A program made the position numbers and the translations under genes. The notes under the pieces were generated by a model, which did not search any database, was not told where the DNA came from, and saw only the letters and a list, made by a program, of their open reading frames with translations. 64,000 bases of DNA, taken from the IMG/VR virus record IMGVR_UViG_3300042564_002819, positions 186,001 through 250,000 of that record. One strand, given 5' to 3'. This DNA is from a virus. Within the stretch, counting starts at the first letter, position 1. Every line of letters begins with the position of its first letter. Positions 24,419 through 27,852 of this stretch are shown in pieces.

Positions 24419-24775
24419 ACAAATAAACTAACACAAACGTAGAGCAAGGTCAACCTGCCCTACGGGCAGTACCGGTACCCCGGAGGGGTACTCGTATGAT
24501 AAAAAAATTTGCTGCAAAAAAAATTACAGGAGTACTTACAGTACCACGGTGGTCAGTTTTTGGCCCAAGGGGTTCCTGGGTTGTAAAAAAATTCTGCCGA
24601 GAAAATTTATATAGAAGTACTTACAGTTTCAGGGTGGTGATTCGGCAACCCCAGGTTTGGCGTAGCGTGGGGGAAAGATTTGGCTGCCGCTGCGTTAAAA
24701 ACTGTGTCAAGCATAAAACGCATACGACCCCCCCGAGAAAAAAATATTTTTTTTATTTTACTATACGACACTTGA
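24419..24775. other. Gene-free stretch with an imperfect direct repeat
   Basis: I see no convincing gene. Two related segments (about 24500-24545 and 24581-24628) share a run AAAAAAATT, then TGC, then GTACTTACAGT. A C7 run with flanking A/T-rich tracts follows near 24727-24760. The short palindrome TACCGGTA lies near 24470. This could be a regulatory or origin-like spacer. The nature is unknown. Confidence 0.4.
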
Positions 24776-24789
24776 CAAAAGTATTTTTG

Positions 24790-24816
24790 TTAGTGCAAGC
24801 ACAGCACTTGCACTAA
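24790..24816. repeat. Hairpin of the TAGTGCAAG family
   Basis: Inverted repeat TTAGTGCAAG / CTTGCACTAA with a 7-base loop, just after the end of the 24830 gene. First of seven such hairpins in the island. Confidence 0.6.
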
Positions 24817-24829
24817 CAGTTAGCTTATG

Positions 24830-25192
24830 TTACGCTGCGTGTTGTTGCTGTGCAACACTAGCGTTTTTGTATGCTTGCAACACTTGCAAAGCACTATGCA
24901 AGCAAAAATTAGTGTGTTGCTGTGCATACTTTTGTTTGCTTTGTGCAACAAGTATTGCAGCATTAATTGCGTGTTGCATGTTGTGCTGTGTTGCACATTT
25001 GCAAACATGTGCTGTGCAAGTGCAGCGTGTAGCATTGTTTGCTTGTGCAGCATAGTGCATGTTAAGCTGCATAAGTGCAACACTGTGCTGCACATAAGCT
25101 TTTGTTGCATTGTATTTGTAATAGTTAGCTTTTGCAGTGCTGTTATGCTGCGTTTGCTTTTTTGCGTAAGTGTTAAGCAAGTTGTTAAGCAT
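24830..25192 (-). CDS. 120-residue protein lacking Asp, Glu, Gly, Pro and Trp
   Basis: It has a matched promoter 38 bases upstream and a hairpin after the stop, like the other genes here. The protein is rich in Asn, Gln, Ala, His and Cys and has no Asp, Glu, Gly, Pro or Trp. That is exactly what absence of GR/YC dinucleotides forces. It may be a real gene adapted to that rule or a gene mutated by D-to-N, E-to-K type changes. Function unknown. Confidence 0.45.
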   Translation of the reverse strand: MLNNLLNTYAKKQTQHNSTAKANYYKYNATKAYVQHSVALMQLNMHYAAQANNATRCTCTAHVCKCATQHNMQHAINAAILVAQSKQKYAQQHTNFCLHSALQVLQAYKNASVAQQQHAA

Positions 25193-25229
25193 GTTGTGCT
25201 ACTTTGCTGTTTGTGTTGCTGTTACATAC

Positions 25230-25258
25230 TGTTTACAGTATTGCGTTAGCTAATGCAA
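25230..25258 (-). promoter_or_regulatory. Early promoter for the 24830 gene
   Basis: TTGCAT, 17 bases, TAAACA on the minus strand; divergent from the promoter at 25337. Confidence 0.5.
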
Positions 25259-25336
25259 GTAAAATAACGCATAATAAAATTGCTTTATTAGTGCAAACAA
25301 CGCAATATTATTACGTGCTTTTTTTGCATTTTGTTG

Positions 25337-25365
25337 TTGCGTTTGCTGTGCTGTGCTGCTATACA
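25337..25365 (+). promoter_or_regulatory. Early promoter for the 25403 gene
   Basis: TTGCGT, 17 bases, TATACA. It is the only plus-strand early gene promoter inside the island. Confidence 0.6.
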
Positions 25366-25402
25366 GTATGCATACAGCAACTAACAGCAAAGTGTAACAC
25401 AC

Positions 25403-25705
25403 ATGCAATACGCAAACTATGCTAGCGTTGTTAACGCTATTAACTGTTATGACGACACTGTGCTTCGTGAAGCACAGCAGCTTGCACTAGCTATAGCACA
25501 GCACAACGAAGACTACTGCACAGACAGCTTGTTTGACGCAGTTAACGAAAGCGTTGACGACTTGGGTATGCAAGCTTGTTGGCAGCACACGGAAATGCGT
25601 AGTGCAATTGAACAGTATAACGACGAGTGCTACAGCACAGCAATTTACGAGCTTGTAATTGCAATGCTAAAGCGTAGCTCAGCATACGAGCAAGCGTTTA
25701 CGTAA
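25403..25705 (+). CDS. Acidic 100-residue protein, unknown
   Basis: It has its own promoter 38 bases upstream and a hairpin after the stop. The protein is acidic and helical, with YDDTVLREAQQLALAIAQHN near residue 16. GR dinucleotides are mostly confined to Asp, Glu, Gly and Trp codons, and YC is nearly absent. Small acidic early proteins of phages often bind host enzymes, but no target can be named. Confidence 0.6.
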   Translation: MQYANYASVVNAINCYDDTVLREAQQLALAIAQHNEDYCTDSLFDAVNESVDDLGMQACWQHTEMRSAIEQYNDECYSTAIYELVIAMLKRSSAYEQAFT

Positions 25706-25728
25706 CGCAAGCTTTTAAAAAAAACAAG

Positions 25729-25756
25729 CACAGTGCAAGTGTAAGCTTGCACTGTG
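25729..25756. repeat. Hairpin after the 25403 gene
   Basis: CACAGTGCAAG / CTTGCACTGTG with a 6-base loop. An A8 run precedes it on the coding strand. Confidence 0.6.
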
Positions 25757-25798
25757 TCGTCGTTTGTGCAGTTTGTTATTTTGTTATTTTGTTATTTT

Positions 25799-25826
25799 GG
25801 GGCGGGCCGGGGGATAGAACTTGGGG
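25799..25826 (+). other. G-rich block, possible G-quadruplex
   Basis: Four G runs (4, 3, 5, 4) with loops of 1, 2 and 9 bases. It is a striking exception inside an island that otherwise avoids GG. It follows three direct repeats of TTGTTATT. Confidence 0.5.
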
Positions 25827-25828
25827 TA

Positions 25829-25857
25829 GCTAGTGCAAGCATTACACTTGCACTGGC
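25829..25857. repeat. Hairpin of the TAGTGCAAG family
   Basis: GCTAGTGCAAG / CTTGCACTGGC with a 7-base loop, between the 25865 gene and the G-rich block. Confidence 0.6.
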
Positions 25858-25864
25858 TGTTTTT

Positions 25865-26047
25865 TTACAGTTTGTTTATGCGGCGCAGGCAGTAGGCGAA
25901 TTGACGTGCAGGACGGGTGCGAGTGCTAATAGACATGCTGTTAGCATAGTATTCGTAAACTTCGTTATAAAGGGCTCCGGAGCTGTCAAGTTCTTTTGTT
26001 TGTTTGTATACTGCAAGTTCCTGCTTTGCTGCGTTGCTAAGTTCCAT
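25865..26047 (-). CDS. 60-residue unknown protein
   Basis: MELSNAAKQELAVYKQ then an acidic middle and a basic C-terminus (RTRPARQFAYCLRRINKL). AAGGAAA precedes the ATG, and a matched early promoter lies 33 bases upstream. Function unknown. Confidence 0.55.
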   Translation of the reverse strand: MELSNAAKQELAVYKQTKELDSSGALYNEVYEYYANSMSISTRTRPARQFAYCLRRINKL

Positions 26048-26079: not shown

Positions 26080-26108
26080 TGTATAGCAGCTTGTATTAGC
26101 TAGTGCAA
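26080..26108 (-). promoter_or_regulatory. Early promoter for the 25865 gene
   Basis: TTGCAC, 17 bases, TATACA. The -35 box lies in one arm of the hairpin at 26099. Confidence 0.65.
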
Positions 26109-26130
26109 GCATTATTTTACTTGCACTAGC
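26099..26130. repeat. Hairpin overlapping an early promoter
   Basis: GCTAGTGCAAG / CTTGCACTAGC, perfect 11-bp arms, 10-base loop; near-identical to 26786. Confidence 0.7.
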
Positions 26131-26162: not shown

Positions 26163-26462
26163 TTACAAAACACAGTATTCCGTTTGAGGAACAAGTTCGT
26201 TTTCCTCAATGTAACGCAACACGCTAACAAACTGCTCCCGCATGTCAGTGTCAAAATACACAATTGTCGTGTGCAGTTCAACAGCGTCGCTCGTTGCAAT
26301 AAACGAAGCAAGTGCGTCAGCAGCACGGGCAATGTCGTTTGCAAACATTGCAATGTGTTCCTGAGGAATTGCAGTTGCAAAATAGTTTTGCGTGTAAGCT
26401 GCAATAGCGTCACGCATTGCTTTTACAGTGTAAAACTTACGCAGCACAGTCATTTTACGCAT
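26163..26462 (-). CDS. 99-residue unknown protein
   Basis: Mixed helical protein (FYTVKAMRDAIAAYTQNYF near residue 10). GAGGGA lies 7 bases before the ATG at 26462. Codons follow the GR/YC avoidance: all Phe are TTT and all Ile are ATT. Function unknown. Confidence 0.65.
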   Translation of the reverse strand: MRKMTVLRKFYTVKAMRDAIAAYTQNYFATAIPQEHIAMFANDIARAADALASFIATSDAVELHTTIVYFDTDMREQFVSVLRYIEENELVPQTEYCVL

Positions 26463-26553: not shown

Positions 26554-26733
26554 TTAGTCTTGCAATTGCAATTGCAATGTGTTAAGCTTTTGCAGTGCAG
26601 CGTCTTCTTCTGCTAGTGCAAGCTTATAAACTGCATAGCTGCCGCCTTGCATAGCTTCTGCTCGGCACTGTGCAGTAAGTGCTACAGCGTTTGCGTAACG
26701 CTTTTGTGCATTAGCAAGTTTTTTGTTTTGCAT
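26554..26733 (-). CDS. 59-residue helical protein
   Basis: Short gene with CGGAG before the ATG and a matched promoter. The protein is an Ala/Gln-rich helix (MQNKKLANAQKRYANAVAL ... LQKLNTLQLQLQD), probably coiled coil. The hairpin follows the stop. Function unknown. Confidence 0.55.
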   Translation of the reverse strand: MQNKKLANAQKRYANAVALTAQCRAEAMQGGSYAVYKLALAEEDAALQKLNTLQLQLQD

Positions 26734-26766
26734 AGCGTGTGCTCCGTTTTGCTACGTTATGCGTTG

Positions 26767-26795
26767 TTTATAGCAGCTTGTGTCTGCTAGTGCAA
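26767..26795 (-). promoter_or_regulatory. Early promoter for the 26554 gene
   Basis: TTGCAC, 17 bases, TATAAA; -35 inside the hairpin at 26786. Confidence 0.65.
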
Positions 26796-26817
26796 GCATT
26801 ATTTTACTTGCACTAGC
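26786..26817. repeat. Hairpin overlapping an early promoter
   Basis: GCTAGTGCAAG / CTTGCACTAGC, perfect 11-bp arms. Confidence 0.7.
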
Positions 26818-26828
26818 AGTTTTTTGTG

Positions 26829-27020
26829 TTACGCTTCGTCTGCGTCTTCCTCAATTTGCTCCAACATAGCCGTAATGTCGTAGCCAACCGTCTGCATTGC
26901 AATAACAATCTGTTTCGCTGCTTCGTATGCATCCCAGCTTTGCACTTCGTCAGCATCCGTGCTGTCGTATGCATTAGCAGCAATTTGTGCAATGTTAGCA
27001 AACAGTTCTTCGCGTGTCAT
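26829..27020 (-). CDS. Acidic 63-residue protein
   Basis: Start at 27020 (MTREELFANIAQ) chosen because GAGGGA lies 8 bases upstream; in-frame residues above it overlap the promoter. Acidic C-terminus MLEQIEEDADEA. No YC dinucleotide within the sense strand of the gene by my reading. Function unknown. Confidence 0.6.
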   Translation of the reverse strand: MTREELFANIAQIAANAYDSTDADEVQSWDAYEAAKQIVIAMQTVGYDITAMLEQIEEDADEA

Positions 27021-27052
27021 GTGCAGTCCCTCTTGTGTTGCCCTATGTGTTA

Positions 27053-27081
27053 TGTATAGCACAGCACACAGCACTTGTCAA
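27053..27081 (-). promoter_or_regulatory. Early promoter for the 26829 gene
   Basis: TTGACA, 17 bases, TATACA; the -35 straddles the loop of the hairpin at 27063. Confidence 0.7.
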
Positions 27082-27100
27082 GTAAAAAGTGCTGTGTGCT
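27063..27100. repeat. Long hairpin overlapping an early promoter
   Basis: AGCACACAGCACTT / AAGTGCTGTGTGCT, 14-bp arms, 10-base loop. A T7 run lies on the plus strand just after. Confidence 0.7.
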
Positions 27101-27110
27101 GCAAGTTTTT

Positions 27111-27377
27111 TTAAATATTACACGCTATAAGTGCTTCGTCAAGCATGTCGTGTACTGCACTGTCGTACGCATAGTTATACTCCGTAGCAAAATCCACGTC
27201 GCTGCTGCACATAATTGTGTCATATTTGTTAATGTTATACTGTTTAAATGCAGCAATTATGTCGTTTGCACTATTACAAAAAACGTCAACAGTTTTATTA
27301 ATACGCAGTACAATTGCGTTTGTAGCGTCGTCAAGCATTACAAAAACGTAATTAGTATTTGCTACAGTGTTTTGCAT
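27111..27377 (-). CDS. 88-residue unknown protein
   Basis: Start at 27377 (MQNTVANTNYVFVMLDDA) with GAGGAG 6 bases upstream. Nearly all GR steps on the sense strand are in Asp or Glu codons and no YC is seen. The many Asp residues were therefore kept while other sites were purged. Function unknown. Confidence 0.6.
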   Translation of the reverse strand: MQNTVANTNYVFVMLDDATNAIVLRINKTVDVFCNSANDIIAAFKQYNINKYDTIMCSSDVDFATEYNYAYDSAVHDMLDEALIACNI

Positions 27378-27416
27378 ATTGTGCTCCTCGCATATGCTGT
27401 GTTGCTTACAAATACA

Positions 27417-27444
27417 GTTATACACTATGCAGCACAGTTTGCAA
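27417..27444 (-). promoter_or_regulatory. Early promoter for the 27111 gene
   Basis: TTGCAA, 16 bases, TATAAC. Confidence 0.55.
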
Positions 27445-27504
27445 GTAACGTTTTGTTACAGTTTTAGTGCGTGTTGTAACAATACGTTATCTCCTACCTC
27501 TGCC

Positions 27505-27852
27505 TCACTCTACACCCCAGCCACAGTATTTCTTCCCACGCACAATATCAAAAAACTCTGCACCTGCAACCGCACCAATCCAGTCGTAAATGTAGTCTCG
27601 TGCTGCCGTGTCCATCTCCCACAGCCGGTCTTCAACCAATCGCCAATCACCTTCGGCTAGCAGCACACAAACATCAAGCCCAGCACTGGCATCTCCCAAC
27701 AGCATAGCTCGCATAGAACGATCCGCTGCCCAACGCTCCTGGTCCGTCCGCATCTTTTCCATTACCAGCAGTTCCACTTGAAGTGCAAGTTCCTGCCAGT
27801 TGATGTGGACAGTGCCGGTAAGAGTGGGTTCATTTACAGTTACGATAGACAT
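27505..27852 (-). CDS. 115-residue unknown protein
   Basis: First gene right of the dinucleotide island, with normal composition. MSIVTVNEPTLTGTVHINW is strand-like, then a helical part (ELALQVELLVMEKMRTDQ). A perfectly spaced promoter lies 35 bases upstream and AGAGGA serves as ribosome site. Function unknown. Confidence 0.6.
   Translation of the reverse strand: MSIVTVNEPTLTGTVHINWQELALQVELLVMEKMRTDQERWAADRSMRAMLLGDASAGLDVCVLLAEGDWRLVEDRLWEMDTAARDYIYDWIGAVAGAEFFDIVRGKKYCGWGVE

Follow-up and report, generated by a model that had tools for sequence, protein, structure and literature searches.

The analyzed window is a stretch of 64,000 nt that spans positions 186001-250000 in a virus record of 330,024 bases, a 330-kb phage (G000). 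It contains an island of small genes in which the dinucleotides 5'-YC-3' (TC, CC) and 5'-GR-3' (GA, GG) are missing over long stretches from one or both strands. The features of the island, with coordinates in the window, are as follows:

24733-25953, plus strand: stretch almost free of YC, spanning genes of both orientations
24774-25451, both strands: run of 677 nt without GA, GG, TC, or CC
24788-24818, no strand assigned: perfect hairpin of 12 bp with a 7-nt loop (arms 24788-24799 and 24807-24818), just downstream of the stop codon of the 120-aa ORF
24827-25249, plus strand: 140-aa ORF overlapping the 120-aa ORF, scored as non-coding (-0.269 per codon)
24830-25192, minus strand: 120-aa ORF without Asp, Glu, Gly, Pro, or Trp, net basic (10 Lys plus Arg, 0 acidic residues)
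25193-25402, no strand assigned: divergent intergenic region, in which two leaders align with their ATGs in register
25403-25705, plus strand: 100-aa island gene, divergently oriented, with two YC in sense and 20 GR, 17 of them at codon position 1
25865-26047, minus strand: 60-aa gene across the patch edge
26163-26462, minus strand: 99-aa island gene, partly cleaned, nine YC in sense, homolog in locus L165 (66%)
26554-26733, minus strand: 59-aa island gene, one YC in sense
26664-27627, minus (sense) strand: YC-free stretch of 963 nt
26829-27020, minus strand: 63-aa island gene, no YC in sense, L165 island homolog 94% identical
27111-27377, minus strand: 88-aa island gene, no YC in sense, L165 island homolog 88% identical

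The original prediction, made from the letters of this DNA, had claimed that part of the island is devoid of GR and YC. This is borne out by the 677-nt run at 24774-25451. It is the only run of such length in the 330-kb record, the runner-up being a stretch of 102 nt in the same island, and the longest run free of GA, GG, TC, and CC in 20 dinucleotide-shuffled versions of the window reaches 67 nt. Within the run, alternation of purines and pyrimidines is increased (0.335 versus 0.257) and GpC is found 3.1 times as often as expected.

The residue count of the 120-aa ORF (among others, 23 Ala, 16 Gln, 13 Asn, nine each of Lys, His, Leu, and Thr, eight Tyr, and a single Arg) confirms that Asp, Glu, Gly, Pro, and Trp are absent, with 0 of each. 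All codons for Asp and Glu contain GA, those for Gly and Trp contain GG, and those for Pro contain CC; hence none of these residues can be encoded in the run, and the missing amino acids restate the dinucleotide fact rather than provide a second, separate observation. The prediction also envisaged D-to-N and E-to-K changes sweeping through the protein. Asn and Lys together constitute 18.3% of the residues, below the approximately 28% expected from such conversion of a typical island gene, which speaks against the sweep. The segment RCTCTAHVCKC (ORF residues 56-66, encoded on the minus strand at 24993-25025) has four cysteines within ten residues and lies between two predicted helices; it is possibly metal-binding, judging from a low-confidence model (pLDDT 48). 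The AlphaFold single-sequence fold of the whole protein is poor, with the same pLDDT, and not usable.

The length of the ORF is weak evidence for a gene because ORFs of at least 120 aa occur in 2.6% of dinucleotide shuffles of the 677-nt run and the overlapping plus-strand ORF is longer. A codon score was trained on 28 island genes from seven phages, using only codons without GR and YC. In leave-one-out analysis it picks the true frame in 27 of the 28 genes, and it also gives the correct frame for held-out GR-free genes of two phages, G027 and G028. The minus-strand ORF scores +0.105, the top of the six frames (from -0.065 to -0.303 in the others). The mean for null frames is -0.121, a score as high is found in 0.0002 of these shuffled frames, and among the 51 null ORFs with 120 aa or more, none reaches it. 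No homolog of the ORF was found in IMG/VR, in 34 phage records, or in approximately 4.8 Mb of fetched loci, and there was no match to a known family in Pfam, PHROGs, or related loci. Restoration of Asp and Glu before the homolog search, as had been proposed, was done in the form of an alignment tolerant of N=D and K=E and likewise yielded no homolog; weak matches in L207 and L142 were discarded as interrupted by stops.

Upstream, the leaders of the ORF and of the divergent gene at 25403-25705 align with a local score of 43, which none of 2000 shuffles attains (maximum 37). Judging from this alignment, the two leaders are paralogous. A promoter and a terminal hairpin had also been claimed for this region. 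A scan of 24600-25800 for the sigma70 consensus yields 0 promoters, and what is left of the promoter claim is a -10-like element that is seen only when the two leaders are aligned. The ORF has no Shine-Dalgarno site; such a site would need GR. The hairpin is real, with 12 perfect pairs, but no U-tract follows on the minus strand. Elsewhere, island promoters both in the window (26783-26825, 26095-26130, and 25830-25862) and in L165:7890-8620 have palindromes, such as AGTGCAAGC..GCTTGCACT, overlapping their -35 box; these palindromes resemble operators rather than terminators.

One explanation for these data is that the 677-nt run is a regulatory or decayed non-coding spacer, clean on both strands, in which a frame of 120 codons arose by chance. 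In favor of a spacer are the frequency of equally long ORFs in shuffles, the longest actual ORF lying on the opposite strand, and the lack of both a Shine-Dalgarno site and a consensus promoter; against it are the codon score of the minus frame, the start codon in register with the paralogous leader, and the existence of similar acid-free genes with Shine-Dalgarno sites in G027 and G028. We consider it unlikely. The ORF at 24830-25192 is probably a real gene by its sequence features, which argue strongly that it is, or recently was, translated.

Relatives of the phage were found by searching with the neighboring DnaB-like helicase and other genes; several of the records are fragments. Islands of 0.4-3.5 kb can be observed in about ten distinct related jumbo-phage contigs. 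In each, one strand, usually the sense one, is almost YC-free; outside the islands, single-strand YC-free runs seldom exceed 200 nt. The contigs with islands are the following:

G000: the phage of the window
G001: 2,078 nt (near-identical G024 and G025)
G003: 1,359 nt (with G030)
G005: 1,356 nt
G006: 429 nt
G007: 1,722 nt plus shorter runs
G008: 1,102 nt
G027: approximately 3.2 kb, with a few exceptions
G028: approximately 3.5 kb, with a few exceptions
G029: 600 nt

Islands are absent from G002 (357 kb) and from G004 (a 160-kb fragment). On the sense strand, the first 28 island genes contain 10 YC and no Pro in 2,490 codons, and 16 further genes from G027, G028, and G029 contain six YC and two Pro in 1,464 codons. 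Depletion of GR ranges from none (G005 and G029) to complete (the run in the window). Genes that are nearly acid-free and lack GR in sense are few. Besides the 120-aa ORF, they include L319:16153-16503 in G027 (116 aa, 2% D/E/G) and L321:14538-14783 in G028 (81 aa, lacking D/E/G and having a Shine-Dalgarno site), in both of which the correct frame scores as coding. The 120-aa ORF is thus one member of a small class of acid-free island genes, among which no sequence similarity is detectable. The odd composition in a metagenomic contig might be taken for an assembly or sequencing artifact, but islands with homologous genes recur across independent metagenomes, including near-identical assemblies (G001/G024/G025 and G003/G030), so that the probability of an artifact is negligible.

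The islands have other recurrent features. The D+E+G share climbs gene by gene in the 5'-to-3' direction of the island, from 5.9 to 27.5% in G001 (L111:4033-6161) and from 9.3 to 31.6% in G007 (L268:568-2840). A family of 45-aa genes (MQKLLN..RAY.QME; L147:1342-1479, L111:5165-5302, L268:1451-1588, L246:10001-10138, and L247:111-248) is represented both inside islands, with no YC, and outside, with several YC, and provides a natural test pair for acquisition of the YC rule. Just upstream of the islands in G003 (L133:1311-1712) and G007 (L268:184-246), clusters of DnaA-box-like words (TGTGGATAA and variants) are accompanied by iterons and inverted repeats and form a putative replication origin; at the corresponding place, G005 has six CGGTACTTTTTGGT-like iterons instead. 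The word TAAGTCATTG recurs in island-adjoining spacers and before promoters of several phages (L147:512, L147:556, L147:1970, L133:1845, L276:8891-8944, and L112:14360-19938).

The original prediction offered two options for the ORF, a gene with extreme adaptation or a relic of hypermutation. In the relic scenario, YC-to-YT deamination would have acted throughout both strands, with the frame remaining open by chance. Full conversion of GR to AR and of YC to YT would remove exactly D, E, G, P, and W, no homolog of the ORF remains, and its own 32 informative sites (62% T) are compatible with deamination. A different pattern is observed across the islands. Where a four-fold third position follows a pyrimidine, C makes up 19.9% in controls and 0.2% in islands, and T/(T+A+G) at the same sites is 0.38 in both islands and controls rather than the 0.51 predicted from C-to-T changes. 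Thus, C was lost from the islands proportionally to T, A, and G and was not turned into T. Serine codons of the TCN type account for 287 of 537 in controls and for one of 104 in islands, the remainder being AGY. The raised purine-pyrimidine alternation and GpC of the 677-nt run are impossible to obtain by transitions, the frame-specific codon usage is preserved, and variation between near-identical phages is not elevated in the island (four SNPs in 2,079 nt versus 25 in 15,464 nt).

A further example is provided by the 60-aa gene at 25865-26047. Its codons 1-31 contain nine GR and four YC, whereas codons 32-60, which lie inside the plus-strand clean patch, contain one GR and 11 YC. The second half of the protein has only one D/E/G residue, a Glu at the edge, where homologs keep several. 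The D/E/G residues kept in the same-genome paralog and in L165 correspond here to Ser, Ala, Arg, and Lys rather than predominantly to Asn and Lys. Because of the T share, the replacement of TCN serine codons by AGY, the alternation and GpC, and the replacements in this gene, a hypermutated relic is quite improbable. The pattern looks like selection against YC, and the evidence argues strongly for such selection rather than directed mutation. The adapted option is favored by codon usage, the leader in register, and comparable genes elsewhere; the relic option fails at the level of the islands.

Our preferred reading, to which we assign slightly less than an even chance, is that the 120-aa ORF is a small, genuine gene of the phage within an island kept nearly YC-free on at least one strand. 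The clean strand is the sense one in most islands, with the cost to the protein falling mainly on Pro and TCN-encoded Ser. The ORF lies at the intersection of two clean patches, one on the plus strand (24733-25953) and one on the minus strand (24774-25451), so that GR codons would have been lost too and D, E, G, P, and W would have become impossible. The encoded early protein would be basic and mostly helical. As for the agent, we infer that it is most likely a host or phage activity that attacks or reads YC and would be harmless where one strand lacks YC locally; paired nicks or inverted sites may serve as example modes, by analogy with T7 escaping EcoP15. A more specific and distinctly more tentative proposal is that early genes of related jumbo phages keep at least one strand YC-free against a YC-reading attack that needs both strands, their proteins being rewritten in the process, up to 120 residues without D, E, G, P, or W.

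A DNA-level rule, under which one strand is clean locally, fits two observations. The G027 gene L319:15396-15665 contains three GR and 17 YC in sense inside the island, and its homolog in G028 contains no YC and 34 GR; in the window, the patch at 24733-25953 covers genes of both orientations. Under this rule, the sense strand would usually be the clean one because that costs the protein less. Sites are confined to one strand in most islands (0-1 YC in G001, G003, G005, G008, and G029), but not in parts of G000, where the gene at 26163-26462 has both kinds of site and breaks the one-strand rule. Opposite-strand exclusivity is only suggestive by a rotation test, with P about 0.06-0.10 in three islands and no exclusivity in two others. 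The limitation of protection to 0.4-3.5 kb counts against this explanation. Genes common to G000 and the other island phages and missing from the island-free G002 and G004 comprise only ordinary enzymes and uncharacterized proteins, with no candidate enzyme, and searches for a C5-methyltransferase were negative.

Transcript-level readers such as Rho present a serious rival, though a doubtful one. Here, early mRNAs without UC and CC would be invisible to an RNA reader, host Rho or a YC-cutting ribonuclease, and the zone clean on both strands would be transcribed both ways. Rho captures cytosine-rich single-stranded RNA (PMC4132721), the YC-free strand is the sense one in nearly all island genes and flips with orientation at gene 25403, and G005 and G029 have no GR depletion at all. 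At the same time, Rho evasion expects all island transcripts to be YC-poor, and the above G027 gene, with its 17 YC read from the sequence, is YC-rich and nearly GR-free in sense inside an island, as is the second half of the window gene at 25865-26047. By our reading, YC-free stretches also extend approximately 40-60 nt upstream of likely start sites, and avoidance of rut should not require so strict a rule as the complete loss of YC.

Other models were rejected: primase-site and leading/lagging-strand models, since in the window the clean strand flips within approximately 1 kb; a DNA rule applying symmetrically to both strands, as the general rule, since G005 and G029 lack GR depletion; a codon or tRNA rule, since YC is banned at codon junctions too; and mRNA secondary structure, by reasoning only.

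No earlier report of dinucleotide-free phage islands was found in the literature searched, and to our knowledge there is no precedent for a complete local absence of a dinucleotide that is tied to a strand and so strong as to exclude amino acids. Selection against YC points to a YC-reading defense or phage-encoded activity, not yet recognized, that acts on a defined set of phage genes. A way to look for it is to use island genes as resistant substrates and their neighbors as sensitive ones. The islands also illustrate the extent to which a nucleotide rule can reshape a protein.

Several known systems share individual characteristics with the islands. The 7-deazaguanine DNA modification by DpdA is found in GA/GGC contexts and thus is similar in having a GR context on one strand; a TGT/DpdA-type domain (PF01702) is absent in seven records, G000-G006, several of which are fragments. 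Hypermutation of the APOBEC type has the same YC context, but the substitution pattern in the islands is not C-to-T, the T share being 0.38 in island and control, and proteins and frames are adapted, with frame-specific codon usage kept. The primary site of Rho is specific for YC. The link of the islands to Rho-dependent termination at rut sites is that Rho takes C-rich single-stranded RNA and that the island RNAs are mostly YC-free; unlike in rut avoidance, some island genes are YC-rich and GR-free, and YC avoidance is total and reaches the promoters. In early-injected phage DNA, for example the first-step-transfer DNA of T5, restriction sites or palindromes are avoided, and in the islands, too, a short word is absent locally and is tied to early genes. 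The avoidance cases known to us concern 4-6-bp sites, and none of them removes a dinucleotide completely or reshapes proteins. In T7, all 36 EcoP15 sites share one orientation and the phage escapes type III restriction (PMC3874151). That system involves a long asymmetric site and all 36 sites of T7, unlike the islands, where the word is a dinucleotide, avoidance is local only, the clean strand varies by patch, and there is no candidate enzyme. The suggested likeness is that sites are found on one strand only, as in most islands but not in parts of G000, and that the opposite orientation is avoided, which in T7 provides for escape because the attack needs inverted pairs.
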